DNA of 64,000 nt, taken from positions 3,957,501 through 4,021,500 of the forward strand of contig NZ_CP098747.1 of assembly GCF_023746535.1 (NCBI RefSeq), in the 5' to 3' direction. The notes under the pieces are model-generated. The model had not been told where the DNA came from, searched no databases, and saw only the letters and a program-made list of their open reading frames with translations. Source of the stretch: Sneathiella marina (GTDB lineage: Bacteria > Pseudomonadota > Alphaproteobacteria > Sneathiellales > Sneathiellaceae). Positions 35,608 through 63,285 of the stretch are shown here, in pieces. The first letter of the stretch is position 1. The number at the start of each line of letters is the position of its first letter. The translations under genes and the position numbers were made by a program.

Positions 35608-36240
35608 GTGTTTACGCTTACACAAATTCAGTCCGCTGCCACCCGGACATTAATATTATCACTAGCTCTGTTTTTTGCGGCTTGTTCAGCACAAAATGAA
35701 GCGGCGTCAACAGCACCGGTCACTCTTTCGGGGTCTGCGGAATACATTATCGGACCGAACGACGAATTGGATGTTTTTGTCTGGCAAAACCCCGATCTTT
35801 CCGTCACGGTTCCCGTTCGCCCAGATGGTCGAATTTCAACACCTCTTGTCAATGACATGGTTGCAGCCTCAAAAACTTCTGCACAGCTCTCTAAAGATCT
35901 GGAAAAAGAGCTCAGCCAATACGTGAAAGACCCTCTTGTAACGGTCAGTGTTTTGACATTTAACGGCCCTTTCAGTCAGCAAATCCGAATTGTCGGACAA
36001 GCGTCGCAACCAATGGCAATTCCCTTCCGTAATCGCATGACTGTTCTGGATGCAATGATTGCAGTTGGTGGTATGACTGAATTTGCCGCCGGCAACCGGA
36101 CCGTTATTGTTCGTGAAGAGGGTGGCGAGAAAAAATCTTATGGCGTTCGTCTAGACGACCTTCTCCTGAACGGTGATGTCAGCGCCAATGTTCCCTTAAT
36201 GCCTGGTGACATACTTATCATCCCGGAAAGTTGGTTCTAG
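35608..36240 (+). CDS. Polysaccharide export lipoprotein (Wza/EpsE-like, Poly_export + SLBB)
   Basis: A 210-residue outer-membrane export protein. The lipobox FFAAC gives the lipidated C26. The Poly_export domain follows (YIIGPNDELDVFVWQNPDLSVTVPVRPDGRISTPLVNDMVA), then an SLBB domain (IRIVGQASQPMAIPFRNRMTVLDAMIAVGGMTEFAAGNR) and a final MPGDILIIPESWF. It is short, like the EpsE-type proteins in loci with PEP-CTERM systems, and lacks the C-terminal membrane helix of Wza. The start is GTG at 35608, with a strong GGGGGAGG site before it. The beta-barrel gene follows after 66 bases. Confidence 0.92.
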   Translation: MFTLTQIQSAATRTLILSLALFFAACSAQNEAASTAPVTLSGSAEYIIGPNDELDVFVWQNPDLSVTVPVRPDGRISTPLVNDMVAASKTSAQLSKDLEKELSQYVKDPLVTVSVLTFNGPFSQQIRIVGQASQPMAIPFRNRMTVLDAMIAVGGMTEFAAGNRTVIVREEGGEKKSYGVRLDDLLLNGDVSANVPLMPGDILIIPESWF

Positions 36241-36306
36241 AGTAGGCGCTATTGATATTGCCGATGATTTGGCATTTGGGAACATAAAAAAGGTAGTCGT
36301 ATCGTG

Positions 36307-38824: not shown

Positions 38825-41248
38825 CTAATTTGCCTTGGCAGCGCGGACTTCTTCCAACGCCAGCTTGGCCTCTTCCACTTGAGAAAAATTTTGTTGTTCA
38901 GCAAGCTTCAAAGCTGCTTCAAGTTCTTTTTCTGCTTCATTAAAGTTGTTTTCCGCCTTATGGGCCAACCCCAGATGATATCTAACGATGGCCATATTCG
39001 GCAGAGCTTCCGCGGCCTCTTTAATCAGCGGGGTCGCCATTTCATATTCACCCAAACGATAATGTATCCAGCCTAATGTATCTTTAAAAAACGGAACTTT
39101 CGTATTTCGGAATCTTTTCGCGAGTGCATACGCTCTTCGCAGACTTTCTTCATCTTCCGCACCTTCCGCAATCAGGCTGGCCAGATTATTGACAACTATT
39201 TCGGAATTAGGCCTGGTGACCAATAACTTCTCATATATGGCAATTGCATTATCAGCTTCACCGTTCGCCTCAAAGAGCCCGGCCTGCGTCAAGTTCATGG
39301 TAAAATTATCCGGGAGCGCCGCCAATCCGGCCGTTAAAACGTCCTGCGCCTCATTTTGCTGGTTGCTCGCCAGATAATATCTGGTCAGCATCATATAACC
39401 TTCCGGACGATCGGGGTCATTTTTAATCAGGTCCAGAAATTCCGTTTCCGCTTTTTCACGCTCTCCCTTACCAAGCGCAATTTGTGCCAGCAACATTTTT
39501 GCCAGGTAATTATCCTCGCTTCTTTCAAGAACCGAGTTTAAAAAGCTTTCTGCTTTGTCAACTTTACCATTTCTAAGGTAGGATTGAACCAGTGACAACA
39601 TGGTCTGTCCTGAATCCGGAGTAGACTCATATGCTTTTTCAAATTCCTGTTCACTGTCATCTGCCTTTTGTAATCCCGCGGCCGCAGCCCCGCTTATCTG
39701 AAGCCCAATGACATCCGTCGCATCAATTTCCTTAATTCTGTCCGCAAGTTCCTCGGCTGCGCCCCAATTCTGTTTTCGCAATTGCAATTGTGCCATAGCC
39801 TTTAACACATCCGTATTCCTCGGATTTCTTGCAATCATTTTCTGTAACAGGTCTTCCGCCCGCTCCGGTGCGGATTGGCGCAAAAAGAATTGCACGTACG
39901 CCAAGCCCACTTCCGGTGCCTGCTTGCTATATCGATAAGCTGCCGCCAATCTATCTTCCGCTAATTCAAAAGCACCATTTATTTCATGAGCTTTTGCCAG
40001 CAATATGGATGTATTAACGGTATCAGGATTTTGCTTGAGCGAAGATCGCAAATTAGAAATTGCGTCTTCTATGTTGCCTTCGTCAATTTGCATAGCGGCA
40101 CGCATAACCAGAGCTTGGGCATTTTGCGCGTCGGTAGCCAAAACTTCATCTACCAGAATTCTGGCTTGAGCCAAATCACCTTTGGTCAGATATGTTCGGG
40201 CTACCCGGTTCCGGGCGATCAATGCATCTTCGGCAACTTTTGCATTATCGATTATTGATTGAAGTATTGCCTGCGACTTGTCTTCATCACCCATCCTGGC
40301 CCAGAGTTCAGCAAGCGCAAAGCGGTATCTAAACACTTCCGGATACTCTGCAATCAAGCCTTCCAACTCCGCAACAGCAGCTGAATCATCCTTTGTCGTA
40401 CGGATGAATTTAACAACATCGAGTTTTGCATCGATATCTTCTGGATTGTCAGTTGCAATGCCCCGCAAAACGGTTTCAGCCTCAGCAAAACGATTTTTCG
40501 ATTCCAAGAAGGAAGATAACCCTTGTCTATATTCTTTGCTTTCCGGATTTTCAGCAATGAGTTCCTGGAATACACTGATAATTCCCTCATCATCATCCAG
40601 TGCAGTCAATGCCCTCATTTTTACAATTTGAAGCGGTGTGCTTCCAGGACGATGCAGCAGCCCTTCATCAATTATCGTTACAGCACCTGCCGGCTCCTTC
40701 GCGTCTAATCTTTCTGCCGCCAACACCGTCACGGCATCGATATTAGAAGGATCGATTTTCAACGCCGCCGTTGCAGCTGCCACAGCGCCGGGTTTATCAT
40801 CTAGCCGAAATAAAACCGCCGCCTTCAATGCGAGTGAATCTGCACTATTCGGATCCAGTTCCATTACCAGATCACTTGTTTTTAATGCATCCTCAAGCCG
40901 CCCGGAGAGGAGCATGATTTTCCCATATCTTGATTGGGCTTTGACATGTTTGGGATCCAGTTCAATAGCCTTAAGGATATCGCCTGCATATAGCCGTAGA
41001 TTGCCTTCACTCTCTTCAACGAGTGCCAGACCATACCATGCATCTGCATAGTTTTCCTTGAGTTGAAGGGCGTTTCTAAATTCAATACCCGCCTTGATGA
41101 AATTTTCTTTTTCAACGAACGCCATTCCCGATTCATAATGGGATTTAGCTTTTTCTTCCGGTGAATCACAGGCTGCTAAAACCAACATCAGCAAACTTGC
41201 AAAAATCAAAGCGGGACCTGATTTAAATTGTGCAATCCGTTCAATCAT
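38825..41248 (-). CDS. TPR-repeat lipoprotein (PrsT-like)
   Basis: An 807-residue protein with a lipoprotein signal (LLMLVLAACDSPEEKAK, lipidated Cys at the LAAC box) followed by about twenty tetratricopeptide-type helical repeats to the end, for example ADAWYGLALVEESEGN and AIELDPKHVKAQSRYGKIML. Size, lipobox and repeat content match the PrsT-type proteins found with PEP-CTERM and exosortase EPS loci. The likely role is a periplasmic scaffold of polysaccharide export. It is upstream of the ExeA-like ATPase gene in one unit. The residues ATPEE-type charged linker and the repeats show nothing broken. Confidence 0.87.
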   Translation of the reverse strand: MIERIAQFKSGPALIFASLLMLVLAACDSPEEKAKSHYESGMAFVEKENFIKAGIEFRNALQLKENYADAWYGLALVEESEGNLRLYAGDILKAIELDPKHVKAQSRYGKIMLLSGRLEDALKTSDLVMELDPNSADSLALKAAVLFRLDDKPGAVAAATAALKIDPSNIDAVTVLAAERLDAKEPAGAVTIIDEGLLHRPGSTPLQIVKMRALTALDDDEGIISVFQELIAENPESKEYRQGLSSFLESKNRFAEAETVLRGIATDNPEDIDAKLDVVKFIRTTKDDSAAVAELEGLIAEYPEVFRYRFALAELWARMGDEDKSQAILQSIIDNAKVAEDALIARNRVARTYLTKGDLAQARILVDEVLATDAQNAQALVMRAAMQIDEGNIEDAISNLRSSLKQNPDTVNTSILLAKAHEINGAFELAEDRLAAAYRYSKQAPEVGLAYVQFFLRQSAPERAEDLLQKMIARNPRNTDVLKAMAQLQLRKQNWGAAEELADRIKEIDATDVIGLQISGAAAAGLQKADDSEQEFEKAYESTPDSGQTMLSLVQSYLRNGKVDKAESFLNSVLERSEDNYLAKMLLAQIALGKGEREKAETEFLDLIKNDPDRPEGYMMLTRYYLASNQQNEAQDVLTAGLAALPDNFTMNLTQAGLFEANGEADNAIAIYEKLLVTRPNSEIVVNNLASLIAEGAEDEESLRRAYALAKRFRNTKVPFFKDTLGWIHYRLGEYEMATPLIKEAAEALPNMAIVRYHLGLAHKAENNFNEAEKELEAALKLAEQQNFSQVEEAKLALEEVRAAKAN

Positions 41249-42957: not shown

Positions 42958-44229
42958 TCAGATTTTCAATATGCGCTTATATGCCTCCAGTAACGGCTTA
43001 ACCTGATGCGACCAGGACAATTCATTCACTACACGTTGCCTACCGTATTCTCCCATCTTTTTCCGTCGGTCCGGGTCGGCCAGCAATTCAATGATCTTAC
43101 TCGCCATATCAACGGGATTATTCGGCTCAGCATATAAGGACGCCTCTTGCGCAGAAAACCGTCCCTCGACGACGTCAAATTGTATAATCGGCTTTTCGAA
43201 TGCCATATATTCCATGATTTTATTCATCGTGGATTTATCGTTCATCGTATTTACGAGGTCCGGATTTACACAGACGTCGGAAGTAGATAACACTTCAAAT
43301 AATGTTTCATCGGGCGCACGGCCAGTAAAAGTTACATACTCCGAAATCCCCATTTCCTGTGACAAGGATTTCAAATTTTCAAGACTGGATCCGCCGCCAA
43401 CCAGGCAAAATTGTATATCTGTTCGCTTAAGGCTAAAGACAATATGCTTTACGGATTCAAGGAGCAAATCAATGCCTTCCTGTTCACCCATGACGCCCAC
43501 ATATCCAATTAAAAATTGCCGGCCATTTTTCCAGGCATCATTCGGCGGCAGGCGCTGAATCCTGCTCAAGTTAGGCCCTGATCTCACAACAAATACGTCG
43601 TCGGGAGACATGTTGCCCCGCTCTACAGCGATTTCGCGGTAGCTGTTATTCGTTGCAATTGAAACCGTCGCTACCTTGAATGTGAGTTTTTCAAATATGC
43701 CCATCAATTTCCAGAAAAACCCTCGCTTACCATACTTCGCTTCATATAGTTCGGGGTTAATGTCATGATGATCAAACAGGTATTTTACCCCTAGTAACTT
43801 GAAGGGTAGTGCGACTAAAAATATTAAGTCCGGGGGATTGCAGCCATGGATAACATCAATTCCACGTGTAAAATAAACCCTCAATGTCAGAACAAATTCC
43901 CAGAATAAAGCACAGCTATATTCAACAAGGTACCCCAGCGCACCTGACGCATCGAGTGGGAGCGGGTGCCTGTAAATATGGATCCCTTCCAATTCTTCCC
44001 GGCGGTCCGTAAAACCAACCCCGGTCGGACATATGATTGAGACGTCCGCTCCGGCAGCTTTCAAGGTAAGAGCTTCATGCCAGACCCGACGGTCAAATGG
44101 AACAGGAAGATTTTCGACAACAATCAGAACTTTTTTGTTTTTCAGCGGTTGTTCAAGAGACAGATCGACTGTCTCATCTGCTTTGTCATCCAGCGTTATG
44201 TCATATGTTTCTTGCGGATTTATATTCAT
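42958..44229 (-). CDS. Glycosyltransferase family 4 (WbuB-like)
   Basis: A 423-residue GT4 enzyme. The N-terminal signature VLIVVENLPVPFDRRVWHEALTLKAAG is typical of the WbuB-like group. The C-terminal donor domain holds FLIGYVGVMGEQEGIDLLLESVKHI, the EYVTFTGRAPDE segment and NDKSTMNKIMEYMAFEKPIIQFD in place of the usual EX7E region. I chose the ATG at 44229 because it overlaps the algD stop as ATGA; the longer opening from 44262 would overlap algD by 37 bases. It probably transfers a sugar to the lipid-linked repeat unit in the cytoplasm. Confidence 0.88.
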   Translation of the reverse strand: MNINPQETYDITLDDKADETVDLSLEQPLKNKKVLIVVENLPVPFDRRVWHEALTLKAAGADVSIICPTGVGFTDRREELEGIHIYRHPLPLDASGALGYLVEYSCALFWEFVLTLRVYFTRGIDVIHGCNPPDLIFLVALPFKLLGVKYLFDHHDINPELYEAKYGKRGFFWKLMGIFEKLTFKVATVSIATNNSYREIAVERGNMSPDDVFVVRSGPNLSRIQRLPPNDAWKNGRQFLIGYVGVMGEQEGIDLLLESVKHIVFSLKRTDIQFCLVGGGSSLENLKSLSQEMGISEYVTFTGRAPDETLFEVLSTSDVCVNPDLVNTMNDKSTMNKIMEYMAFEKPIIQFDVVEGRFSAQEASLYAEPNNPVDMASKIIELLADPDRRKKMGEYGRQRVVNELSWSHQVKPLLEAYKRILKI

Positions 44230-45500
44230 GAAATTGTACCGATATTTACTTTTTGCGGACAATTAATTTCCAGCTTGCCGAAATCGTCGTTTGCCGAAAT
44301 TACCAGCTGGTAGTCTGAACTTTCAGCGATTTCCTTAGTAACCAACAGCCTGTCAAGTGTTGGCAGATGCGAATAAGCATATCCTAGATTTTGGCCGATT
44401 AGGCGCGAGGCATCCAGGCTTTCATCGTAAACATCCAACTCAAAACCGTCTTCCAACAAACGGCGAGCCATATCAAGATTAGGGCTTTCTCTTAGATCAT
44501 CTGTGTTGGCTTTAAACGCCAGCCCGACAAGAAGTACCTTGCTTCCAGCGGGCAGGTTGGCAACGGCCTGCTGAAATTGAAACAGTTTATGAGTGTCATT
44601 TGACGGCAACAAGGAATCTATTAAATATGTACCGGCACCCACATCCAGCGAAATTTTCTGCAAAGCCCTAACGTCTTTTGGAAGGCAGGATCCGCCGAAA
44701 GCGCCTCCTGGACGTGTATAATAACTTGAAATATTGAGTTTCGTATCCGAGACAAATATCTCATGAATTTTTCGGGCACTTATGTCCATTTTTTGACATA
44801 CACGGCCAACTTCGTTAGCAAAGGCGACTTTAACAGCGTGCCATGTGTTATCGACAAACTTTGTGATTTCAGCTTCCCGATAATTCGTATAGAAGACCTC
44901 TGCATCAATACCTTCATGGAGCTTTTCCATATTTGCCGAGGCTTCACCATCATATGTGCCGATAACTATTTTGGGCGGATTAAAATAGTCGTCAATCGCA
45001 GTTCCCTCCCTCAAAAATTCCGGATTATAGACAAGCTCAATGGATTTCATTCCCTCGGCACCGAGACTGGTTTCAAAAATTGGAGAAACAAGCTGCTCTA
45101 TTGTCCCTGGCCGAAATGTCGAACGGAAGGCAATCGTCAAGCTACTCTCCCGATCCAGGTCGAGTGAAGAAGCGAGCTTCTTGGTTACATTTGCAATGAA
45201 GCCCATGTCGTGAGATCCATCAATATTGCTTGGCGTTCCGACACAAACGATGGCCATGTCAAAAGAAGACAAGCCCTCAGGTATGTCGGTCGTTGCCGAG
45301 AGGCTGCCGGAGGCGACGCCTTCCTTTAATAATTCATCAAGCTTGGGCTCTCTTATGGGTGAAATACCAGCATTGAATTCCGCAACTTTCTTTTCATTGA
45401 CATCAATACCAACAACCTGATGTCCCTGCTTTGCGATACAACATGCGGCCGTGCAGCCGACATACCCAAGTCCAAAAATAGCAATACGCATACTTTTCAT
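44226..45500 (-). CDS. algD: GDP-mannose 6-dehydrogenase (AlgD-like)
   Basis: A 424-residue nucleotide-sugar dehydrogenase with the NAD loop RIAIFGLGYVGCTAACCIAKQGH and catalytic C272 in GGAFGGSCLPKDVRAL, the AlgD form. LVYNPEFLREGTAI and VDNTWHAVKVAFANEVGR fit as well. It oxidises GDP-mannose to GDP-mannuronate, the alginate precursor. Gene order supports this: the GDP-mannose-making algA homologue is directly upstream (56-base gap). The start could be M1 or M4 (MRIAIFG). No alginate polymerase (Alg8/Alg44) is present, so the mannuronate is probably one part of a heteropolymer and not true alginate. Confidence 0.9.
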   Translation of the reverse strand: MKSMRIAIFGLGYVGCTAACCIAKQGHQVVGIDVNEKKVAEFNAGISPIREPKLDELLKEGVASGSLSATTDIPEGLSSFDMAIVCVGTPSNIDGSHDMGFIANVTKKLASSLDLDRESSLTIAFRSTFRPGTIEQLVSPIFETSLGAEGMKSIELVYNPEFLREGTAIDDYFNPPKIVIGTYDGEASANMEKLHEGIDAEVFYTNYREAEITKFVDNTWHAVKVAFANEVGRVCQKMDISARKIHEIFVSDTKLNISSYYTRPGGAFGGSCLPKDVRALQKISLDVGAGTYLIDSLLPSNDTHKLFQFQQAVANLPAGSKVLLVGLAFKANTDDLRESPNLDMARRLLEDGFELDVYDESLDASRLIGQNLGYAYSHLPTLDRLLVTKEIAESSDYQLVISANDDFGKLEINCPQKVNIGTIS

Positions 45501-45556: not shown

Positions 45557-46969
45557 TCATGTTCTGCCAAACTCATCATCAATTCTGATAATGTCGTCTT
45601 CGCCGAGATAGGCACCTGTTTGAACTTCAATGAGCTCAAGAGATATTTTTCCGGGGTTTTCCAGTCTATGTTCACAGCCCATCGGTAAGTATACATTTTC
45701 GTTTTCATATACTAGAAATGTCTCAGATCCTCGCGTTACATTTGCCGTTCCCTTAACGACAATCCAATGTTCCGCCCGGTGAAAATGCTTTTGGAGCGAT
45801 AGCTTGCCTCCCGGCTTTACGGAAATGCGCTTGACCTGATGCCGGCTACCCAAATCAAGTGTCTCATAATCACCCCAGGGCCGGTACATTCGCAGATTTT
45901 CCACGACTTCAATTCTCTCGTCTGATCTTAACTGTTCAACGAGCTGCTTAACCTGAGATACATTATTTCGATCGACAACCAGCAATGCATCCTTTGTGGA
46001 CACTACAATTAGATTTTCACATCCAATAAGTGCCATAAGCCGCCCGTCGCCATGAACGTAACAGTTTTTTGAGCCCATGATATAGGCCTCTTGGTTCGAA
46101 GCATTTCCTTGTTTATCTTTTTTGGATAGGTCCCAAATGGACTCCCAGGTCCCCACATCCGACCAGTCAAATCCAGCGCGAACCACTGCGGTGACATTGG
46201 TTTTTTCCATCACCGCATAATCGATGGATAGTTTTGGGCATTGAGAAAAAGACGTTTCATCGAGCCGGAGAAAGTCCAGGTCAATTTTCGCGTTTGCGAC
46301 TGATTTACCGGCAACATCCAGCAATTTAGGACAATGTGTCTGCATTTCAGTTAGCATAGTTTTCGCGGAAAACATGAAATTGCCCGAATTCCATAGAAAT
46401 CCGTTTGCCAGATACTTCTCGGCTAGTTTTTTATCCGGCTTTTCCACAAACTGTTTTACAGAATATCCGTTTTTATCAATTGGCTGGTTCTCATCCATTT
46501 GAATATAACCAAATTCACTGGAGGGCTCATGTGGCTCTATTCCAAAGGTTGTAATATGGCCAAGCGCTGAAATTTTTGCGGCTTCCTTTACGGTTTTTCG
46601 AAATTCGGCAAGGTTGTTCACGACATGATCCGATGCAAGAACCAACAGCATCGTGTCCGGATCCTCTTCATTTGCCAGAATAGCGGCAACCGCAATTGCA
46701 GCTGCTGAATCGCGCGGCTCGGGCTCCAGAACAATCTGTGCTTTCGTGCCCAGTTTTTCCACAGCCTCACCAATCAAAAACCTGTGCTGCTGATTTGCAA
46801 TAATCAGTGGGGATAAAAAAAGTTTGTCGTCGGCAATTCGTTCAAGTGTCATTTCAAACGTTGTACGGCCGTCAACCAAAGGCACAAAGGGTTTTGGCAA
46901 ACACGCGCGAGAAACAGGCCATAACCGAGTAGCGGACCCACCGCATAAAATGACTGGTCTTATTTTCAT
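45557..46969 (-). CDS. algA: Mannose-1-P guanylyltransferase / mannose-6-P isomerase (AlgA-like)
   Basis: A 470-residue bifunctional type II enzyme. The N-terminal nucleotidyltransferase has VILCGGSATRLWPVSRACLPKPF (6-28), the VEKPD active-site segment and DWSDVGTWESIWD. The C-terminal cupin isomerase domain (about 350-470) has RPWGDYETLDLG, KPGGKLSLQKHFHRAEHW (metal-binding His) and LIEVQTGAYLGEDDIIR. It makes GDP-mannose from mannose 6-phosphate in two steps. GGSATR replaces the more usual GGSGTR. It is the first gene of the unit with algD and two glycosyltransferases. This family is also called ManC or CpsB. Confidence 0.92.
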   Translation of the reverse strand: MKIRPVILCGGSATRLWPVSRACLPKPFVPLVDGRTTFEMTLERIADDKLFLSPLIIANQQHRFLIGEAVEKLGTKAQIVLEPEPRDSAAAIAVAAILANEEDPDTMLLVLASDHVVNNLAEFRKTVKEAAKISALGHITTFGIEPHEPSSEFGYIQMDENQPIDKNGYSVKQFVEKPDKKLAEKYLANGFLWNSGNFMFSAKTMLTEMQTHCPKLLDVAGKSVANAKIDLDFLRLDETSFSQCPKLSIDYAVMEKTNVTAVVRAGFDWSDVGTWESIWDLSKKDKQGNASNQEAYIMGSKNCYVHGDGRLMALIGCENLIVVSTKDALLVVDRNNVSQVKQLVEQLRSDERIEVVENLRMYRPWGDYETLDLGSRHQVKRISVKPGGKLSLQKHFHRAEHWIVVKGTANVTRGSETFLVYENENVYLPMGCEHRLENPGKISLELIEVQTGAYLGEDDIIRIDDEFGRT

Positions 46970-47398: not shown

Positions 47399-48883
47399 CT
47401 ATATTCCTTTTGAGAAGAACCGATTGCTTGCTGTTTTTAAAATGCCTGTAAAAATATTAAATATGTAAGTATCCAGTAATAACAGCGTAATAATTGCAAT
47501 TCCCCCTGATCCAAAGCCACTCAAAACAAACCGAGCAAAAAGATCCCATGATTCCGGAATTAAATAATTCAATAGAACATAACCACTCGCCAGCCCGGCT
47601 AAAAATGAAGATAATGGTGCAAATAGTAACTTGGAAAGATATCCGGGTGGAAATTTCACGGTCCAATTGATAAGTAAAAAATTAGCGGGAACATTTATTA
47701 CAACAAAAACCAACGCGCGCATTCCCGCCAACGCAGCTAGTTGGTATTCGACGGCTTCATCTCGGAAAAAATGGGCTACTACAATGAAAGATACAACGCT
47801 TGTGCAAGTTGTTCCCCATGTTAAAGCAGCCCCTATTCCTGGCTTTCCAATTGCCTGCAATAGATAAGGGGTGAGTATAGAAAATGACTGCACGGCTCCG
47901 ACAACACATAACATGATCAAGCCTAGCCAGGCCACCGCCCACTCATCCCCCAAAATCTCCAAAACAACGGATGACATTCCACCCAGCACGCCTAGAATTG
48001 GAAATGATAATCCTGCACTCAATCGGATACACTTCTCAACAATTTGCGCCAATTTTGCAGTATCATTTTGATGCTGTGAGGCGTATGGCAGTATAAAAAC
48101 GGCAATTGAACGGGAAAGAAGAGAATTTACGATATCAACCAATCTATCGCAGATCCGGTATAACGCTATCAAGATAGGACCAAAGAGGATTCCGACTAGA
48201 ATAGCTTCCATACGTGACTGCGCAAAACCACCCATCTCGTTTAAAAATGCCCCGCCAGCAAAAGGCAATACATCCTTTAAATATTTCCAGGAAATATCGA
48301 ACCCAACTGCATACGGATTGAAAAACCAGGCGAGCGTCATAAAAATCACAACTCCAACCCATTGTTGAACGACTAACGCCCATATTCCATACCCGTTTAA
48401 CGCCATGTAAACGCCGATCAATCCACCAAGGATTCCGCCGATTACATGTATATATGTAAGATGCTTGAAATCCATTGCTCTCACTAGCATGCCAAGCGGA
48501 AGCGTCGTCAAACCTTTCAGCAATATTAGCGGCGCCATGGCAATAATGACGTTAGTCACCTCTGGCGTATTATTTATTTTCCCCCAAAATCCCGACGCAG
48601 AATAAGCGACAACAGACATTAGCAGACACCAGACAATGCTCACCCAGAAAATTGTGTCCAAATGCCCTTTTTGCAAATCTTTTCGTTGAATGATAACTGT
48701 GCTGAGAAATTGGCCCGCCACGATCTGTATAAAGAAAACAAAAATTCCGGCAATTGCAACAATTCCAAAACTTTCGGGGCCCAGTATTGCGGCTAATATA
48801 AAAGCCATCACACCGCTGATTCCGAGCGAAGACATATTCATCGCAAAAGACCAACTGAGAGCCTTCCTGGGATTGCTTGCCAT
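47399..48883 (-). CDS. Polysaccharide flippase (Wzx/MOP family)
   Basis: A 494-residue membrane protein with about 12-14 helices. It opens RKALSWSFAMNMSSLGISGVMAFILAAILGPESFGIVAIAGIFVFFIQ, the classic start of lipopolysaccharide/EPS flippases of the MOP superfamily (Polysacc_synt_3 type). It likely moves undecaprenyl-linked repeat units across the inner membrane, with the ligase/polymerase-like protein at 58436 acting later. It lies 32 bases after the tandem GNAT genes on the same strand. Confidence 0.88.
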   Translation of the reverse strand: MASNPRKALSWSFAMNMSSLGISGVMAFILAAILGPESFGIVAIAGIFVFFIQIVAGQFLSTVIIQRKDLQKGHLDTIFWVSIVWCLLMSVVAYSASGFWGKINNTPEVTNVIIAMAPLILLKGLTTLPLGMLVRAMDFKHLTYIHVIGGILGGLIGVYMALNGYGIWALVVQQWVGVVIFMTLAWFFNPYAVGFDISWKYLKDVLPFAGGAFLNEMGGFAQSRMEAILVGILFGPILIALYRICDRLVDIVNSLLSRSIAVFILPYASQHQNDTAKLAQIVEKCIRLSAGLSFPILGVLGGMSSVVLEILGDEWAVAWLGLIMLCVVGAVQSFSILTPYLLQAIGKPGIGAALTWGTTCTSVVSFIVVAHFFRDEAVEYQLAALAGMRALVFVVINVPANFLLINWTVKFPPGYLSKLLFAPLSSFLAGLASGYVLLNYLIPESWDLFARFVLSGFGSGGIAIITLLLLDTYIFNIFTGILKTASNRFFSKGI

Positions 48884-51428: not shown

Positions 51429-51429
51429 C

Positions 51430-55291: not shown

Positions 55292-56599
55292 TTGAAATAT
55301 TTTATTGTTTTGGCCTTATACCTTAATATCAGTTTTCTATTCGCTGCTTTGTTGCCATCACATGCCCTCGCATCTTCACGAACTTTTTACGTTGATATTA
55401 ATACACAAGATTCAGCCAAACAGGACGGTAGTGTAGAAAATCCGTGGAACTCAGTTGAAGACGCGCTCGGGGGGAATACCGTCAGAGGTGGAGATACGGT
55501 TATTCTTCGGAAAGGAAACTACGGAAATTTGATCATTGAAAATCTCCGTAATGAAGAGTCCATAACAATAAAAGCTCAGGATGGCCATAATGTTCAATTT
55601 AGTGGTATTCAAATTTATGCAAGTAGTAACTGGGGCATCAAAGGTTTAATAATTAATGGGTCATCGGAACAGGGCAAAAGAAAACGGCATCTTGTTACAA
55701 TTGATAAAAAAAGCGATCGAATTTTATTGAGCGATCTCTCCATCAAATCAACAACCGATACCAAATTATGGACAGACGAAGACTGGACTTCAAAAGCGTC
55801 AAACGGAATATTCTCACAAGGTACGAATATAGTAATTAGGAATAATCTAATTCGTAATATTAATCACGGAATATGGATACTTGGCGAACAAACTCTCGTT
55901 TCCGGGAATACGGTAGATTATTTTTCTGGAGACGGAATGCTAGGTTTAGCAAATCACCTTATTTTCGAAGACAATTTAGTCAAAAATTGTGTGGAAGTTG
56001 ATGATAATCATGATGATGGATTTCAATCATGGACAAAGGGTTCGGATGGAAAAGTTGGTACGGGTACAATTTCAGATGTGATCCTGAGAAGAAACTCATT
56101 TATCAATTCAGTACCTCCAGATAAAGAATCTGAATGTGATATGCAGGGAATTGGCTTATTTGATGGAATATATGAAAACTGGGTCATTGAAAACAATCTC
56201 ATTGTGGTAGATCACTGGCACGGCATAAGTGTCATGGGCGCGAAAAATGTCAAAATTGTAAATAACACTGTTTATGATCCGAATACCAGACGGCCGGGGC
56301 CGGCATGGATTCAAATCTTTTCTCACAAAAATGGAACAGAATCGACAGATTCCCTTATCGCAAACAATATCGCAGGCTCATTTGGGAAAAAAATGTACGG
56401 TGTTTTATATACGGGTAATATGGTTCTAAGAAATGCGCAGAGTGTATTTAGAGATGCGGAGAGTTTGGATTTCGAGCTTTCGCCAGACAGCATCGCGAAA
56501 CAAGGAGCAAATCCAGATTACTTACCCGAAACAGATCTCAAAGGGCGAAAAAGACAAAAAAATGGCACCGGAGATATTGGCGCCTTTCAGACCCCTTAA
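55292..56599 (+). CDS. Sec-secreted parallel beta-helix protein
   Basis: A 435-residue protein with a signal peptide (cut near LPSHALAS, residue 28) and a right-handed parallel beta-helix (about 60-380) of the kind found in polysaccharide lyases and mannuronan epimerases. Possible active residues are the cluster VDDNHDDGFQSW (H240, D241, D242), D214 in SGDGM, and H310 in WHGISV. The same order (RHLVTI, GDG, HxD, HGISV, then ANNI...DFELSPDS) occurs in each module of the large protein at 60196, so the two are homologous. The DPHE motif of AlgE/AlgG epimerases is absent. TTG start with GGAGGG nine bases upstream. Its likely target is the exopolysaccharide, and cleavage versus epimerisation cannot be told. 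Confidence 0.8.
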   Translation: MKYFIVLALYLNISFLFAALLPSHALASSRTFYVDINTQDSAKQDGSVENPWNSVEDALGGNTVRGGDTVILRKGNYGNLIIENLRNEESITIKAQDGHNVQFSGIQIYASSNWGIKGLIINGSSEQGKRKRHLVTIDKKSDRILLSDLSIKSTTDTKLWTDEDWTSKASNGIFSQGTNIVIRNNLIRNINHGIWILGEQTLVSGNTVDYFSGDGMLGLANHLIFEDNLVKNCVEVDDNHDDGFQSWTKGSDGKVGTGTISDVILRRNSFINSVPPDKESECDMQGIGLFDGIYENWVIENNLIVVDHWHGISVMGAKNVKIVNNTVYDPNTRRPGPAWIQIFSHKNGTESTDSLIANNIAGSFGKKMYGVLYTGNMVLRNAQSVFRDAESLDFELSPDSIAKQGANPDYLPETDLKGRKRQKNGTGDIGAFQTP

Positions 56600-56612
56600 A
56601 TTTGGCCTTTAA

Positions 56613-57359
56613 CTATCGAACGCTACTCATTACTTCGGAGACAGAGCTGATCTGACAATTTCTTCTAAGTGCGTAATCCATCGCGAATTCAAGTGTTTTC
56701 GGCTTCACTCCATATGCAGTGGGTGAATTTTGAACATCATGCGTATAAAAGATAAGCCATCCTTTTCTTTGCAGGGCTGCATCAATAAGGTCAGCAATAC
56801 TTTTCTCTGTAATCTCCTCTTCATAAAGCGCGTTTGCTTTTAAACAGGATAGGTCTACTTTCCCCAAATTTAAACCTGGGCTGATACCCCGCCCCGACAA
56901 AAACTGATCAGAAATCATCTTTTTTGCGCGTAAGTTTATTGATCCGAATGGATAAGAGAAACTAAGAGGCTTTCTGTTACCTGTTATTGAGTTCAAATAA
57001 TCTATACTTTGTTCAATTTCCAAAGTCAGGTCATGTTTACTTAATGTTTCACATCGCTTGTGGTTGTAGAGATGTGAGGCTAATTCATGATTGCTTTCTT
57101 TAAGATACTCAAGATCATCTTCTGTTTGACAAGGCAGCTCATTTTCAAAACCATTCGTCAATCCCCCGCATAAATAAAATGTTCCTGACAACCCCCTGTC
57201 TCTCAGCATTTTACCACCAACAGTTATTGCAGAACGCGGACAATCATCAAATGTAAAGCTTACAACCGGCTTTTCAAACGTCAAAACTCTAGAGTTTATA
57301 GGCGCATATCGAGCAATTTTTCGATCGAACTTTCCAATAATTTTTTCAGCAAAAGTCAT
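56613..57359 (-). CDS. Polysaccharide deacetylase (NodB/CE4 family)
   Basis: A 248-residue CE4 deacetylase. The metal-binding motif TFDD lies at 36-39 and the H-x-x-x-H pair H96/H100 in NHELASHLYNH. SYPFGSINLRAKKMI and a final GWLIFYTHDV match the remaining family motifs. It removes N- or O-acetyl groups from polysaccharide. No signal peptide is evident, so it may act in the cytoplasm on precursors or be exported in another way. It is the last gene of a unit with the FemAB-like and ligase-like genes and converges with the beta-helix gene. Confidence 0.9.
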   Translation of the reverse strand: MTFAEKIIGKFDRKIARYAPINSRVLTFEKPVVSFTFDDCPRSAITVGGKMLRDRGLSGTFYLCGGLTNGFENELPCQTEDDLEYLKESNHELASHLYNHKRCETLSKHDLTLEIEQSIDYLNSITGNRKPLSFSYPFGSINLRAKKMISDQFLSGRGISPGLNLGKVDLSCLKANALYEEEITEKSIADLIDAALQRKGWLIFYTHDVQNSPTAYGVKPKTLEFAMDYALRRNCQISSVSEVMSSVR

Positions 57360-57374
57360 TTAGTTGATGCCCGC

Positions 57375-58427
57375 TCATTTGGATTTTTTCAGCGAATTGT
57401 ATGTCTTTTCTGCCAGTTTTACCAAACCGATAATGACTTGGTTTCCAATCTCATAGGGCCCGGCCGCAGTTACGTCGTCGCCGTTAAAGCCTTTTTTGAA
57501 ATGAAATACACCTTTATTGCCGTCTGGATCGATACCGCCAAGGTCATACCACTTGCAGCCTCGGGATTTTGCCTCAACTATTGCGTTCCATTGCAATAAA
57601 TATGACGCTTTAAGTTGGTTACCTTCTGCCGTAGAAGCCCCGAGAAGATAAACAGCAGTATCACCAACATAACTGCCAACATGGGCTGCTAACACGTTAT
57701 CGTCTTTAGACGCAATTTGAATGAAAAATTGATCGTCACCCGACAAACCTTCTTGAACTCTTTCATAGAAATCAACTCCCAATGAAACGTCAAAGCCCTT
57801 TTTTTGTTTTAATTGGATAAACAGATCCTCGAATTTTTGAAACCAAGGTCCGGATGTTCCAGTAGAGATGGTCAAGTCATTTTTTTGCGCACGATTAAGC
57901 TGATTTCTCCATTTTCCATTCAGTGAAGATCGAATTTCATCAGTATCTTTTTCAATATCAACGACAAAAGTCCTGTATTGGTCCGATTGATTAATTTTCC
58001 GGAATCCAAGATCCTCAAAAATAATAGATCGATTAGCGTTTCCTTCTTCTGTGTATACAGAGCATTTAATTCTCAAAACGAAATTTCGAGACCGAGTATA
58101 TTCAGCAATCAGGGCCTGTAGGCACAGTTTAAAATCCTGCTCGGCTTGAGCATCATTGCTATCTCGAACATGAATAGGGCCTCCGTTTACGTAAGCAATC
58201 CCTAGTGGAAAAATGGGTAATTTCTTAAGCCGTACATTCGTGAGCCCTATCAGTTTTTCCTGATTAAAGATGCCAACAAACTCTGATTTCGCTCCAATTC
58301 GAGCTGCGCTTTCAACACCATAACTCCAGAACTGCCTGTAATTATGATCGCTAAATTCCGCGATATGCCTTTTCCATTCATTTTCATTTAGAAAATTTAA
58401 TTTGAGACCGTTCATTCCAAGGACCAT
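57375..58427 (-). CDS. FemAB-like GNAT aminoacyl/acyltransferase
   Basis: A 350-residue FemX/FemAB-type double GNAT protein. It has RQFWSYGVESAARIGAKSEFVGIF near the start, SSLNGKWRNQLNRAQKNDL in the middle and the family hallmark WYDLGGIDPDGNKGVFHFKKGFNGD near the end. FemAB proteins of EPS loci are often listed with exosortase systems. The reaction here is unknown; transfer of an amino acid or acyl group to a sugar is the usual guess. Starts at residue 1 or 5 (MNGLKLNF) are possible. It starts 8 bases after the ligase-like gene and ends 15 bases before the deacetylase start. Confidence 0.85.
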   Translation of the reverse strand: MVLGMNGLKLNFLNENEWKRHIAEFSDHNYRQFWSYGVESAARIGAKSEFVGIFNQEKLIGLTNVRLKKLPIFPLGIAYVNGGPIHVRDSNDAQAEQDFKLCLQALIAEYTRSRNFVLRIKCSVYTEEGNANRSIIFEDLGFRKINQSDQYRTFVVDIEKDTDEIRSSLNGKWRNQLNRAQKNDLTISTGTSGPWFQKFEDLFIQLKQKKGFDVSLGVDFYERVQEGLSGDDQFFIQIASKDDNVLAAHVGSYVGDTAVYLLGASTAEGNQLKASYLLQWNAIVEAKSRGCKWYDLGGIDPDGNKGVFHFKKGFNGDDVTAAGPYEIGNQVIIGLVKLAEKTYNSLKKSK

Positions 58428-58435
58428 TCTTTCTG

Positions 58436-59806
58436 CTAAGAGGACCTATTTCTTATAGGTGGTGCTAACTGGTGCGTTGGCTGCTGATCGCCAGTTGTTT
58501 CATTTAAATTACGGGCTCGTTCCATTGCATTTTTTCGTGCATTGGCGATAATTGTAACTGCAAGGCTTACGCTTCCTCCAAGGAACAAATAGAAAGCATT
58601 CAGCATTTGGCCAAAATAAGAAACGGCCAAAAAACTCATACAATGAACAAATAGGACACTTCCGGCTCCCCACAAAACCCATCTATCCCCATTGGTTTCC
58701 GACGCCTTAATACCGCGTCCAATTATTTTGAATATGGAATAAATAAACAGGATAAAGAGGACAAAGCTCAACAACCCTCCGCGAACAGCTTCCAATATAA
58801 ATTGATTAGTTACATCCTGAAGCCCATAGTCCCAATGAGCGGTAGATCGAACACCAACAAGCCACCATTCATTAAAGTTGTCTATAAATTTTTCGATTAA
58901 ATTATATCGATGCCAACCCGTTGATCCGCCTGAAATATCAATTCTGGAAATCAGGTGCCAAACCGGTGCTTTCATCACCATATGCAACGCAAGTAGGATC
59001 AAAAGTATGCCCCATCGGACATACGACATAACGGAGCGAAATACATACATCGCCATGGCTAAGCAGCCGAAGAAAACTGACATAACAGGCGTACTGGAGG
59101 CGGTATTCAATAAAATGCCCAAGCAACAAATACCAAATATGATCAGAAGTATCCGAGGTATTTGTTTATTCATCCAGAACGCTCCGAACCAAGGCAGTAT
59201 CACCGCCCAGAATACGCCCGCCATAATCGGATGAGAGAAGGGGCCTTGGCACCGAAGCCTGCCATCTCTAATGGCGGTATACTTCGGAACACCACCGAAT
59301 TCTGCAAATAAGTTACGGCCAGTTACTCTTTCCACTGAGAAAACTATAAACATTGGAATAGAAGCAAAACCTATAAACAATATATTCCGTCTTAGATCCG
59401 CTACGGTTCGAATAAAAATTCGCCCTAAAAAATAAGCTCCGGCCGCATCAAGCATATACCCAATTCTAAAGACGAAAGCCCCGACATTGCCATATAAAAT
59501 TCCATATGCGAATATTCCCCATATCATAGATACAAGAATATAGACGTCCGGCGCTTTCATAGTGAAACCCAGGTACTCTCGTCTAAACATGACGCGTATA
59601 ATTGCCGCAATAATCACTATTCTAATAAAACTGAAATCTATTGTTGCAATAACAATGCGTTGGGCACTTGGAATCGCCATGATCATAATCAAAAGCGGAA
59701 TAATCGCATAATTTCTGCGCAGCATTATCGTGGCTATCGCGCACAGAGCAACCAAAGCGATACCAACAGGATGTGCTGTTGTTTCATTCGCCCAGCTTAT
59801 AAGCAT
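58436..59806 (-). CDS. O-antigen ligase/polymerase-like membrane protein
   Basis: A 456-residue membrane protein with about 11-12 helices and a large loop near residues 290-340 (RIDISGGSTGWHRYNLIEKFIDNFNEWWLVGVRSTAHWDYGLQDVTNQFILEAVRGGLLSFVLF). That loop pattern, with R/W-H and the following helix, is typical of Wzy/WaaL O-antigen polymerases and ligases. It may polymerise the repeat unit in the periplasm. It heads the unit with femAB-like and deacetylase genes. The C-terminal tail is polar. I considered an exosortase but see no Cys/Arg/His exosortase motifs. Confidence 0.82.
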   Translation of the reverse strand: MLISWANETTAHPVGIALVALCAIATIMLRRNYAIIPLLIMIMAIPSAQRIVIATIDFSFIRIVIIAAIIRVMFRREYLGFTMKAPDVYILVSMIWGIFAYGILYGNVGAFVFRIGYMLDAAGAYFLGRIFIRTVADLRRNILFIGFASIPMFIVFSVERVTGRNLFAEFGGVPKYTAIRDGRLRCQGPFSHPIMAGVFWAVILPWFGAFWMNKQIPRILLIIFGICCLGILLNTASSTPVMSVFFGCLAMAMYVFRSVMSYVRWGILLILLALHMVMKAPVWHLISRIDISGGSTGWHRYNLIEKFIDNFNEWWLVGVRSTAHWDYGLQDVTNQFILEAVRGGLLSFVLFILFIYSIFKIIGRGIKASETNGDRWVLWGAGSVLFVHCMSFLAVSYFGQMLNAFYLFLGGSVSLAVTIIANARKNAMERARNLNETTGDQQPTHQLAPPIRNRSS

Positions 59807-60195
59807 CGTGCATCATCTTTCCGCCCTAAATATTGATCAAAAGAGTACTCTCGAAAGTATACTTCTTAAAATCTCGATCTACTAGAATGTAGCTGGATCA
59901 AACCTTGATTTACATTTCTTTCTCATAACCGGCGGTGAACTGAGATATTTTTGTTCACCTGAATTACATCAAAACACTACCAAATAGATCACAACGTTAT
60001 TCCGCAATGATAGAGTTTACATCTATTCTTACGTCAATTTTATCTAAACGTTTTAGGAAATTTGAGTTAAATATATATTAAAGGCGTACTCAATGAACGC
60101 CCGCATATAGAAAATTTACAAGGCTGTAATCAAAAAAAAGCGGGTAAATGAACACCAAATGGTGACATTTACCCGCTTCTATACCCCAGTGACAG
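59807..60195. other. Gene-free region between the beta-helix gene and the ligase-like gene
   Basis: About 390 bases, A/T-rich. It holds the terminator of the minus-strand beta-helix gene (60132-60176) and must contain the promoter of the ligase unit. I see no gene. Confidence 0.6.
60132..60176 (-). terminator. Strong rho-independent terminator of the large beta-helix gene
   Basis: On the minus strand GCGGGTAAATG (60176-60166) pairs over 11 bp with CATTTACCCGC (60150-60140). An inner CACC/GGTG pairing extends the hairpin, and eight T follow (the A run at 60132-60139). It sits 20 bases after the stop of the gene at 60196. Confidence 0.9.
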
Positions 60196-63100
60196 TTAAG
60201 TCAGGAAATCTGAATTTTCCAATTCATATAAAGAAACCCCAATCAACTCGGGTTGAATGTCTACTGCATGATCGCCATCAAAATCGATACGGAAATCATT
60301 GGTGCTTTCCTCAGCATTAGCCTGCGCACCAGAGGCTTCCTCAATAAATTCTTCATCACCAACGGTACCAGCTGGCTCCGAAGCCATTACATCAAATGAG
60401 AACTTTTCATCAGAGTCGGCATCAATGTCGGAATTCGCAACTTGTTTGCTAGAAACCTGACTATTGTCATTTTCATCAGTAAACTCAATAATGTCCGAGC
60501 CTTCTTCTGCTGTAAATATGCCAAACCCTGCTTCGGTATTCGCTGAAGCATCTGATGTGTCAGTATCATTTTCTTTCAGTGCATTAACATCTGCACCTGC
60601 TGACAAGCTAGAAGCTATTTCGAAATCATCTGGATCTACTGAATAACGATCCAGAGTATTCGTAAATACACTGCTATACGCAAGCTGGTCACCGGAGGCA
60701 CTTGTTTCTGCAAGCACATTATTTGTGAGTGTAATGGAAGAGTCGTCGCCATTAGCCCTAATATCATTCGAGACATTATTCTCGATTTCGGCATTTTCTA
60801 CGTCAAAGGCACCTATCCATACAGGGTTCTCTGTACCCGGAGGAGAAACAACCGTATTGTCCCTAATTTCCAAGCCATCAGCATGGTAGACGCTAATGCC
60901 ATGATATCCTGACTGATAAACTACATTGTTTTCAATGAGAACATTTTCGTATTGAGATCCAGATTGAGAGTTTAGGAAAATTCCCTGGGCATCGTCTCCA
61001 TCTCCCTGCAAAATCATATTATCACGAATAATAATATCAGAATTTGCCTGTTTCCCATTTTGACCATAGAACTGAATAGCATTTAAAGAGCCGCTCGTTG
61101 AATACATGTCAGTGATTGTATTCCCTGAAATTTCTACTCCTTGGACGGTAGAAAATGAAAAGCCCTTGGAGCCAATATCATGCACATTATTGTCAGAAAT
61201 GTTTAAATCTTGCGAGTTACGCACATTAGTGCCGATGCCAAGATTACTAAATTCGTTACCAGTCACGTCAATACCAGTTGAGTTTGACACAGACAGACCA
61301 TAAAAATTGTCCGCCAGTGATTGACCCTCATTACCAAACTGATTATTTTTCAGGACGATATCCGAACTTCTCTGTATTGAAGTAAGATGTTCACCCCAGG
61401 AACCAATAGGATCGTCATCTGAGTAGATCGCAAGTTGCTCTATTGTAATATTGGAAGAATTATTAACATAGAGATTTTCAAGATGCGCCGGGCTCCCTGA
61501 ATCTGCAGATATAATTGTTACCGGCGTGTCAAAATTAAAGTTCCTTAAACTAACACTACCGTAATCACCGGAGAGCAAAGTTATCACTTCGCCCCCACTC
61601 GCATTTTTCATCGCAGCCATAAGTTCAGCTGCACTGCTTACCTCAATTACGTTACCACCGGATTGATTGTCGTTAGTGTCGTCCGTATCATCATTTGATT
61701 GCGGCTCATCTTGACCATTGATAAATACTTCAACTTCCGTCTCTACTCCGCTTGCAGTTTTAACGACGAATGTTTCTGTTAAATTTTCACCTGTGTCCAA
61801 TGCTTGGATTTGCGAAGAATCTACGGCGGTATAGCTCCAATTACCTTCTGTATCGACAGAAAAATTACCATGTTCCCCTGTCAGGTTTTCCGCTAAGAAT
61901 TCTTCGTTTCCACTGCCGCCGTCTATATCAAGATCCCCAGATGTAGTTAGAGAGCCGTCTTCTACAACAGAGCCAGAAGTATCACCAGATACGGTTACTT
62001 CGACTTGATCCTGGTTATCGGACTGATCGTCTCCGTCACCAGAATTATCTGTTGTGTCGTCTGTTGTGTCGTCTGTTGTGTCGTCTGTTGTGTCGTCTGT
62101 TGTGTCGTCTGTTGTGTCGTCTGTTGTGTCGTCTGTTGTGTCGTCTGTTGTGTCGTCTGTTGTGTCGTCTGTTGTGTCAGTATCTTTCAGTGCATTAATA
62201 TCTGCACCTACTGTCAAGCTGGAATTTACTTTGAAATCATCTGGATCTACTGAATAACGATCCAGAGTATTCGTAAATACACTGCTATACGCAAGCTGGT
62301 CACCGGAGGCACTTGTTTCTGCAAGCACATTATTTGTGAGTGTAATGGAAGAGTCGTCGCCATTAGCCCTAATATCATTCGAGATATTATTCTCAATAAC
62401 GGTATTTTTTACTTCAAAACCACCTATCCATACAAAGTTCTCAGTATCTGGAGGAGATACAACCGTATTGCCTTTAATTTCAAGTCCATCGGCACGATAA
62501 ACGCTAATGCCATGATATCCTGACTGATAAACCACATTGTTTTCAATGAGAACATTTTCGTATTGAGACCCAGGCTGGGAGTTCAAGAAAATTCCCTGAG
62601 CATCCTCTCCATCTCCCTGCAAAATCATATTATCACGAATAATAATATCAGAATTTGTTGGTCCGTCAGCGTAGCCTTGGAACTGAATATGGTCAGAATG
62701 ATCACCAGCCATAGGATACATGTCCGAGATCGTATTCCCTGCAACCTCAACCCCCTGGACACCGGAAAAATGCAGACCATCAGAGCGTATATCGTGAATA
62801 TTATTATCCGATACGTTCAAATCCTGTGAATAAGAAAAATGAGCACCATAGCCGAGATTACTAAACTCGTTACCGGTCACGTCAACACCAGTTGAGTTTG
62901 ACACAGACAGACCATAAAAATTGTCCGCCAGTGATTGACCCTCATTGCCAAACTGATTATTTTTTATGACGATATCGGAGCTTCTCTGTATTGAAGTAAG
63001 ATGCTCTCCCCAGGAACCAGAAGCTCCGTCTTCCGAATAGACCGCCAATTGTTCTATCGTGATATTGGAAGAATCGTAAATATATAGATTTTCCAAATGT

Positions 63101-63285
63101 GCCAGATTCTCAGAATCCGCAGAGGTTATCGTAACCGGCGTATCAAAATTATAATTACTTAGACTAACACTACCATAGTCACCGGAGAGCAAAGTAATTA
63201 CATCACCCCCACTAGCATTATTCATCGCCGCCAAAAGCTCGGCTGCGTTGCTTACCTCTATTACATTTGAATCTATAGAACTCAT
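60196..63285 (-). CDS. Tandem beta-helix protein with VCBS-like domain, likely type I secretion substrate
   Basis: A 1,029-residue acidic protein without a signal peptide. Beta-helix module 1 covers about 8-366, a (DDTT)n linker 368-413, a VCBS-like domain about 428-525 (SGSVVEDGSLTTSGDLDI, GNFSVDTEGNWSYTA), module 2 about 546-904 and an acidic tail 905-1029 ending ELENSDFLT. Lack of a Sec signal, VCBS content and the tail suggest C-terminal-signal export through the ABC/HlyD pair at 31871-35277. Both modules are homologous to the Sec protein at 55292. Module 1 keeps D169, the DHSDH cluster (195-199) and H258. Module 2 has K707 and SLNA at the first two sites but keeps H795. A GGAG lies before the ATG. 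Polysaccharide binding, cleavage or epimerisation are all possible. Confidence 0.82.
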   Translation of the reverse strand: MSSIDSNVIEVSNAAELLAAMNNASGGDVITLLSGDYGSVSLSNYNFDTPVTITSADSENLAHLENLYIYDSSNITIEQLAVYSEDGASGSWGEHLTSIQRSSDIVIKNNQFGNEGQSLADNFYGLSVSNSTGVDVTGNEFSNLGYGAHFSYSQDLNVSDNNIHDIRSDGLHFSGVQGVEVAGNTISDMYPMAGDHSDHIQFQGYADGPTNSDIIIRDNMILQGDGEDAQGIFLNSQPGSQYENVLIENNVVYQSGYHGISVYRADGLEIKGNTVVSPPDTENFVWIGGFEVKNTVIENNISNDIRANGDDSSITLTNNVLAETSASGDQLAYSSVFTNTLDRYSVDPDDFKVNSSLTVGADINALKDTDTTDDTTDDTTDDTTDDTTDDTTDDTTDDTTDDTTDDTTDDTTDNSGDGDDQSDNQDQVEVTVSGDTSGSVVEDGSLTTSGDLDIDGGSGNEEFLAENLTGEHGNFSVDTEGNWSYTAVDSSQIQALDTGENLTETFVVKTASGVETEVEVFINGQDEPQSNDDTDDTNDNQSGGNVIEVSSAAELMAAMKNASGGEVITLLSGDYGSVSLRNFNFDTPVTIISADSGSPAHLENLYVNNSSNITIEQLAIYSDDDPIGSWGEHLTSIQRSSDIVLKNNQFGNEGQSLADNFYGLSVSNSTGIDVTGNEFSNLGIGTNVRNSQDLNISDNNVHDIGSKGFSFSTVQGVEISGNTITDMYSTSGSLNAIQFYGQNGKQANSDIIIRDNMILQGDGDDAQGIFLNSQSGSQYENVLIENNVVYQSGYHGISVYHADGLEIRDNTVVSPPGTENPVWIGAFDVENAEIENNVSNDIRANGDDSSITLTNNVLAETSASGDQLAYSSVFTNTLDRYSVDPDDFEIASSLSAGADVNALKENDTDTSDASANTEAGFGIFTAEEGSDIIEFTDENDNSQVSSKQVANSDIDADSDEKFSFDVMASEPAGTVGDEEFIEEASGAQANAEESTNDFRIDFDGDHAVDIQPELIGVSLYELENSDFLT
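60622..60773 (-). repeat. 152-base exact repeat, module 2 copy
   Basis: Identical base for base to 62233-62384, inside the large beta-helix gene. It encodes the end of the beta-helix module (from about SNDIRANGDD to DPDDF). DNA on either side has diverged. Confidence 0.85.
62051..62178 (-). repeat. 12-base tandem repeat coding for (DDTT)n
   Basis: The plus-strand unit GTTGTGTCGTCT occurs ten times without change (62051-62170), followed by eight bases of an eleventh copy. On the minus strand it encodes the Asp-Asp-Thr-Thr linker between module 1 and the VCBS-like domain. Because the unit is 12 bases, gain or loss of copies keeps the reading frame. Confidence 0.95.
62233..62384 (-). repeat. 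152-base exact repeat, module 1 copy
   Basis: Identical to 60622-60773. It codes for the end of beta-helix module 1. The rest of the two modules is similar but not identical, so this block has been duplicated or homogenised recently. Confidence 0.85.

Follow-up and report, generated by a model that had tools for sequence, protein, structure and literature searches.

A stretch of 64,000 nucleotides from Sneathiella marina (contig NZ_CP098747.1, positions 3,957,501 to 4,021,500), called the window here, encodes two predicted beta-helix proteins, A and B, within a locus for exopolysaccharide (EPS). Sequence comparison showed that the beta-helix domains of the two proteins are homologous, far beyond chance. 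On balance, we regard A and B as extracellular enzymes that process the strain's own acidic EPS, with A exported by the Sec route and B by a type I pump. A ladder of conserved Asp, His and Gln residues would form the active site, and the EPS of the strain would be the substrate. Exosortase-type EPS loci are common but, to our knowledge, hardly any enzymes have been described that trim or modify the polymers made there. The A/B family offers a concrete candidate for this processing, in two export forms. The features of both proteins are listed in Table 1.

Homology of the beta-helix domains of A and B

With BLASTP, A showed 28% identity to the first beta-helix module of B (m1) over 328 columns (E 2e-18) and matched the second module (m2) with E 1e-13. 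When a profile of 68 A relatives was compared with a profile of 11 B modules, the two were matched at 99.8% (E 4.8e-29, score 218, 298 columns), whereas the reversed profile scored 25 and none of 24 block-shuffles exceeded 63.8. The homology and the shuffle controls show that the domain family first noticed in a sequence-only reading of the window is real. The coordinates and reading frames given there for both proteins were correct.

That reading had described an ordered set of six segments in A and in both modules of B. The order was found in A and m1, with RHLVTI/EHLTSI, (G/S)DG, NHDD/DHSD, WHGISV/YHGISV, ANNI/TNNV and DFE/DFK, respectively. It was not found in m2, which has lost both the D-G turn and the H-x-D cluster: SKGF stands for SDG and SGS-LNAIQF for GDHSDHIQF. 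It is uncertain whether ANNI and TNNV correspond, since BLAST aligns the ANNI of A to ENNIS of m1. The closing D-F-E is present in A but reads D-F-K in m1, and it belongs to the generic tail of such proteins.

The domains of B are arranged in the order m1, (DTTD) repeat linker, VCBS domain, m2 and acidic tail. The two modules are 81% identical at the protein and 83% at the DNA level, which indicates a recent duplication. Rungs 3 and 4 of the ladder (QGIF and YHGISV) were retained in m2, and its reading frame contains no stops despite three missing ladder residues. If these residues are catalytic, their loss would make m2 a dead copy, and from its sequence m2 is probably inactive; it may serve for binding only.

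A ladder of conserved residues on the predicted beta-helix

Structures of A and m1 were predicted with AlphaFold2. Both were modelled as right-handed beta-helices, A with a predicted local distance difference test (pLDDT) of 94.1 and a predicted template modelling score (pTM) of 0.93, m1 with values of 85.4 and 0.84. In neither model are the conserved Asp and His residues scattered: the turns DG, H-x-D-G or H-x-D-H, QG and HG are predicted to start four successive strands of one sheet. In the model of A, where the numbering is that of the window residue minus 28, D186, H212/D214, Q257 and H282 precede or start the strands 188-190, 214-218, 257-261 and 282-287. In the model of m1, D166, H193/D195, Q227 and H255 correspond to the strands 168-171, 194-201, 226-233 and 255-260. 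The stacking of the four rungs was deduced from the strand order, and the side-chain distances were inferred.

The residues D186, N211, H212, D214, G215, Q217, G258, G260, H282 and G283 (model numbering) are invariant in the 68 aligned A relatives, which span many phyla. Numbers of A residues given below are those of the window protein.

Foldseek found GH136 lacto-N-biosidases as the top structural matches of A, together with PL9 pectate and rhamnogalacturonan lyases, PL6 and RbmB. For m1 the top match was RbmB, and GH87, GH28, PL6, PL31 and AlgE4 were also matched.

Distant kinship to PL9

Searches in Pfam and NCBIfam gave no good match for the A family beyond generic beta-helix and choice-of-anchor Q tail entries. 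In PDB sequence searches A, the A profile and a combined profile had no match of weight, and the B profile matched only weak, repeat-like stretches. Members of the A family did not match PF22842 directly, and no usable PL9 was obtained when 200 genomes of this phylum were searched with PF22842. PL9-type sequences were instead drawn from 20 genomes in which A relatives are also present. Compared singly with A, they gave 64-96%, which is not separable from the 62% of one generic beta-helix. Since these comparisons were weak, six of the sequences were used as a profile with shuffled controls. The A profile matched this PL9 profile at 99.3% (E 4e-20, score 155.8, 359 columns), whereas a generic beta-helix family gave 16.6% and none of 24 block-shuffles scored above 55.5. 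As judged from these profiles, the A family is a distant relative of PL9 and not an orphan. The suggestion of an undescribed family holds in that no named Pfam, NCBIfam or PDB family was found by sequence, but the profile-profile comparison revealed remote PL9 kin. For B, the profile comparison gave no direct match to PL9; B matches A.

The alignment of the profiles places the DG turn of PL9 on SGDG of A, the cation site NSDDG(F/W)D on NHDDGFQ, and G-F-K on G-I-G. In the PL9 enzyme PpPel9a, the Ca-1 ion is bound by D202, D226 and D230, and K271 is the catalytic base (PMC6627557). The PL9-type sequence L178 meets the published ligand spacing of 0/24/28 exactly. At the Ca-1 positions of A, D214 and D242 were found in 68 of 68 relatives and D241 in 63, while the third ligand Asp is a Gln in all 68. 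The position of the catalytic Lys is occupied by Gly (G288) in every one of the 68, and for this reason A was not filed as PL9.

Other filings were rejected as well. For AlgE/AlgG, the DPHD/DPHE motif is absent and the ladder of A has no invariant or near-invariant Tyr; even the string DPH is missing from A and B, in line with the earlier observation on DPHE. In PL6 the catalytic Lys and Arg lie on central coils. The A family has no invariant Lys or Arg, and PF14592 was matched by 2 of the 68 members with a best E of 0.0016. For PL31, the Tyr184/Lys221 pair has no conserved counterpart.

Possible chemistry of the ladder

Two chemistries are conceivable: a lyase assisted by a cation, with some residue other than Lys as the base, or a hydrolase that employs the two Asp. 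The kinship to PL9 and the remnants of the cation site favour a lyase. A and B could be PL9-type lyases in the wide sense, in which a cation bound by two Asp and the Gln neutralises the uronate and H240 or H310 replaces the Lys. Besides the alignment of D214 and N-H-D-D-G-F-Q with the Ca-1 site, the PL9 structures among the best matches of A are consistent with this, and the UDP-glucose 6-dehydrogenase-like gene of the locus can supply uronic acid. The exchange of the catalytic Lys for Gly and of one ligand Asp for Gln, both complete, argues against it, and an invariant Lys, Arg or Tyr was not found among the 68 aligned relatives, which is unusual for a lyase. We therefore take a wide-sense PL9-type lyase as a real possibility that falls well short of being probable.

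A hydrolase is favoured by the composition of the ladder, where the invariant residues are carboxylates, His and amides only. The stacked D214 and D242 would then act as acid and base or nucleophile, in the manner of other beta-helix hydrolases. This fits the GH136 lacto-N-biosidases at the top of the structural matches of A and the GH87 and GH28 matches of m1, but the sequence kin is PL9 and no GH family. In GH28, Asp and His lie on adjacent coils, and the Asp/His order of the ladder is unlike it. We give a glycoside hydrolase almost the same weight as the lyase, likewise well short of probable.

A and B may also be non-catalytic matrix proteins that bind EPS in a cation-dependent manner. In m2 three ladder residues were lost while the fold was kept and no stops appeared, as if the ladder were dispensable, and B orthologues carry matrix-type LamG, cadherin and VCBS modules. 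A precedent exists in the cadherin-like RapA2 and RapD, which bind rhizobial EPS (PMC9298526). On the other hand, the loss in m2 sits beside the intact copy m1, and binding by itself can hardly explain why H, D, Q and H are fully invariant across phyla at 35-64% identity. We consider pure binding unlikely.

C5-epimerases working as a Sec/type I pair like AlgG and AlgE are very improbable. What speaks for them is the shared logistics, with beta-helix homologues both in the periplasm and among the type I secretion products, catalytic modules in duplicate and RTX (PMC4444821), and m1 matches AlgE4 structurally. However, neither the DPHD motif nor the catalytic Tyr is present, and the nearest sequence kin are lyases.

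Export of A and B

As had been stated for one of the two proteins only, a signal peptide of the classic Sec type was recognised by eye in A, whereas B begins with MSSIDSN and lacks an N-terminal signal peptide. The VCBS-like and acidic C-terminal parts described for B were found again, the former as a TIGR01965 match and the latter with 34 D/E versus 3 K/R in 124 residues. In 10 of 12 B orthologues of the genus, RTX repeats follow one beta-helix module, and most have LamG and cadherin-like domains. The GGxGx(D/N) motif occurs one to four times in these 10 and not at all in the B of the window. The nearest syntenic relative is L072, where A, HfsH, FemAB, Wzy-like and B genes stand in the same order. 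Its B consists of two LamG domains (by eye and similarity), three VCBS domains, helix, RTX with four motifs, and a tail that matches the tail of the window's B at 38% over 110 (E 7e-24). By these comparisons the B of the window is a rearranged, derived form of a predicted type I substrate, in which the tail was kept, the RTX lost and the helix duplicated. The RTX of the orthologues, the shared C-terminal tail and the PrtD/HlyD pair point to Sec-exported and type-I-exported versions in one EPS locus, as the sequence-only reading had proposed.

A would thus be released via Sec. For B, the PrtD/HlyD type I pump would drive the protein directly to the outside, where it may attach to the matrix via its VCBS-type module. 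There, A and B would most likely trim or remodel the emerging chains of the acidic EPS of the locus.

Two divergent B proteins without RTX repeats (L067:9134-11854 and L068:9469-12300) adjoin a type I pump and Wza; their H-x-D is kept and the D-G turn and the last His are missing. In another alphaproteobacterial family, a B-type beta-helix is fused to a G8 domain (L159:1-3309, minus strand), a fusion not seen in Sneathiella.

Range and neighbourhood of the family

When the GTDB genome collection was scanned for matches to the A profile, 180 loci were confirmed. The top 80 of these belong to Sneathiella, Deltaproteobacteria, Myxococcota, Planctomycetes, Verrucomicrobia, Spirochaetes, Chitinivibrionales, Ignavibacteria and others, and their identity to A is 33-63%. 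Among 299 genomes sampled across the phylum, a full-length A match was found in the window's own genome only. The A family is wide but rare. A restriction of the family to Sneathiella was rejected, as A occurs in many phyla and B-type modules in a few other alphaproteobacterial families. The C-termini of many delta/myxococcal A relatives are MYXO-CTERM-like, and type-IX-like tails were noted in some members from Fibrobacter, Chitinivibrionales, Ignavibacteria and KSB1. Both kinds of tail were named by eye, and they place the family at the cell surface.

In five other Sneathiella genomes, A lies between the genes of the XrtA-type ATPase and Wza/PrtD/HlyD, and B was found within EPS loci in almost all Sneathiella genomes compared. 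The link to EPS proposed earlier holds for the window, where both genes are in the EPS locus, but A is not tied to EPS clusters across its range.

Several observations weigh against A and B being enzymes for the strain's own EPS. In seven Sneathiella-type loci (L074, L083, L088, L091, L095, L104 and L122), A is located between asd and citE/sdhCDA, which is a housekeeping place. Outside Sneathiella, no conserved or EPS neighbourhood of A was found, and the recurrent clusters were mostly open reading frames overlapping A. Given this placement and the lack of EPS neighbours outside the genus, A and B may have a substrate other than the EPS of the strain. The structural matches are at the fold level, with Foldseek TM values of about 0.35-0.65, and the generic beta-helix fold serves binding proteins too. 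No family member has a known activity, and the missing invariant Lys, Arg or Tyr counts here as well. Beside rung 1, the A of the window has Leu217 where 67 of the 68 relatives have Arg. The A of L072, its closest relative, retains the Arg.

Taken together, the sequence comparisons suggest a new family in a known superfamily; its residue set is unusual, and export is arranged by two routes. More tentatively, A and the catalytic module of B might found a new family of carbohydrate-active enzymes: a thinly spread surface enzyme with a PL9-derived beta-helix, in which Lys was exchanged for a His/Asp/Gln ladder, and which in Sneathiella was split into Sec and type I versions that process the strain's own exosortase-type EPS. 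This would be a case of active-site rebuilding, as the predicted fold and remnants of the cation site of PL9 are present without the lysine that PL9 chemistry requires. Since the catalytic lysine is gone, assays may reveal a novel mode of sugar-polymer processing, and the probably dead module m2 beside m1 with its full ladder would be a natural built-in control.

The EPS locus

The window sits in a complete genome of 4.07 Mb. The genes surrounding A and B (Table 1), among them glycosyltransferases, form an EPS cluster of the exosortase and Wzx/Wzy type that is complete and includes the PrtD/HlyD pump. Just to the right of the window follow exosortase, chain-length regulator, tyrosine kinase and the initiating transferase WcaJ. 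The nucleotide-sugar dehydrogenase is a possible source of uronic acid.

The exosortase is fused to EpsI (G000:C1:4024514-4026055; L205:3115-4656), 3 kb right of the window, and scores above the cut-off for the VPLPA-CTERM type XrtD. Three PEP-CTERM-like tails are encoded far from it in the same genome. The EPS cluster also holds two similar tandem GNAT-type (Acetyltransf_6) genes at 48916-51452, and an AT3-SGNH acyltransferase is encoded at 52936-54957, so the polymer may be acylated. A heparinase II/III-like gene at 17173-18819 adjoins purH and is not part of the EPS cluster.

Table 1. Positions in the window of proteins A and B, their parts and the neighbouring EPS genes
Feature	Position	Strand	Remarks
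Protein A, 435 aa, predicted Sec-exported single-domain right-handed beta-helix, PL9-related	55292..56599	+	
A, signal peptide, residues 1-28 (M1-A28)	55292..55375	+	hydrophobic core, SHALA before mature start; by eye
A, ladder rung 1, SGDGMLGL	55925..55948	+	D214 (68/68)
A, ladder rung 2, NHDDGFQSW	56006..56032	+	N239, H240, D242, Q245 invariant (68/68)
A, ladder rung 3, DMQGIGLF	56138..56161	+	Q285; G288 is Gly in 68/68
A, ladder rung 4, WHGISV	56216..56233	+	H310 (68/68)
Protein B, 1029 aa, two-module beta-helix protein, predicted type-I-exported	60196..63285	-	
B, module 1 (m1)	62191..63276	-	full set of ladder residues
m1, ladder rung 1, RSDGLHF	62767..62787	-	D169
m1, ladder rung 2, GDHSDHIQF	62680..62706	-	H196, D198
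m1, ladder rung 3, DAQGIFL	62584..62604	-	Q230
m1, ladder rung 4, YHGISVYR	62494..62517	-	H258
B, linker with (DTTD)-type repeat, residues 370-410	62056..62178	-	
B, VCBS domain, residues 455-528	61702..61923	-	TIGR01965, E 2.5e-15
B, module 2 (m2)	60586..61665	-	recent m1 copy, ladder residues lost
m2, lost rung 1, GSKGFSF	61153..61173	-	D to K
m2, lost rung 2, SGSLNAIQF	61069..61095	-	H deleted, D to N
B, acidic C-terminal tail	60199..60570	-	homologous to tail after RTX repeats of orthologues; RTX motif absent
HlyD-type membrane fusion protein, type I secretion system	31871..33154	-	
PrtD-type ABC transporter, type I secretion system	33151..35277	-	TIGR01842, 706 bits vs cut-off 510
Wza-like exopolysaccharide export protein	35608..36240	+	TIGR03027
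Outer-membrane protein	36304..37767	+	TIGR03016
XrtA-associated ATPase-like protein	37808..38761	-	TIGR03015
PrsT-like TPR protein	38825..41248	-	
Nucleotide-sugar dehydrogenase	44226..45500	-	nearest kin: UDP-glucose 6-dehydrogenases
GDP-mannose pyrophosphorylase/phosphomannose isomerase (ManC)	45557..46969	-	
Wzx flippase	47399..48883	-	
HfsH-like polysaccharide deacetylase	56613..57359	-	
Wzy-like membrane protein	58436..59806	-	named from position and many hydrophobic stretches; no family match

Comparison with known systems

The PL9 enzymes Pel9A, the rhamnogalacturonan lyase 5OLQ and PpPel9a have the fold predicted for A and match it over the full length of the profile; the DG and DDG(F) turns that belong to their Ca-1 site recur in A in the same order and register. 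A differs from them by the exchanges of Lys for Gly and of a ligand Asp for Gln, and by a new invariant His before the DDG turn.

RbmB is a Vibrio polysaccharide lyase whose gene accompanies those of its own EPS system (PMC11637428). It was the top structural match of m1 (9ozd, 9ozl), a similarity at the structure level only, and there is no sequence match. The PL31 alginate lyase PsAly (6kfn) acts through Tyr184 and Lys221 (PMC6796002). Its structural match with m1 covers the beta-helix core (TMt 0.67) and a cation is located in the PsAly cleft, but the two catalytic residues are not conserved in the A family.

In Azotobacter, AlgG and AlgE serve one EPS as Sec-exported and type-I-secreted RTX beta-helix enzymes, with duplicated A-modules and the inactive homologue AlgY (PMC4444821). 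A and B resemble this arrangement but lack DPHD and the catalytic Tyr, and the sequence match to AlgE consists of repeat-like pieces only. The mannuronan epimerases are therefore an analogy only.

In Rhizobium leguminosarum, the PrsDE type I pump exports PlyA and PlyB, which cut EPS at the cell surface and have a cadherin-like module (PMC9298526). The likeness to Sneathiella is one of logistics, as a type I pump is combined with surface proteins that act, or in Sneathiella would act, on EPS and with a cadherin-like module. The substrate genes are scattered in Rhizobium, whereas in Sneathiella the pump and its predicted substrate are encoded in one EPS cluster.

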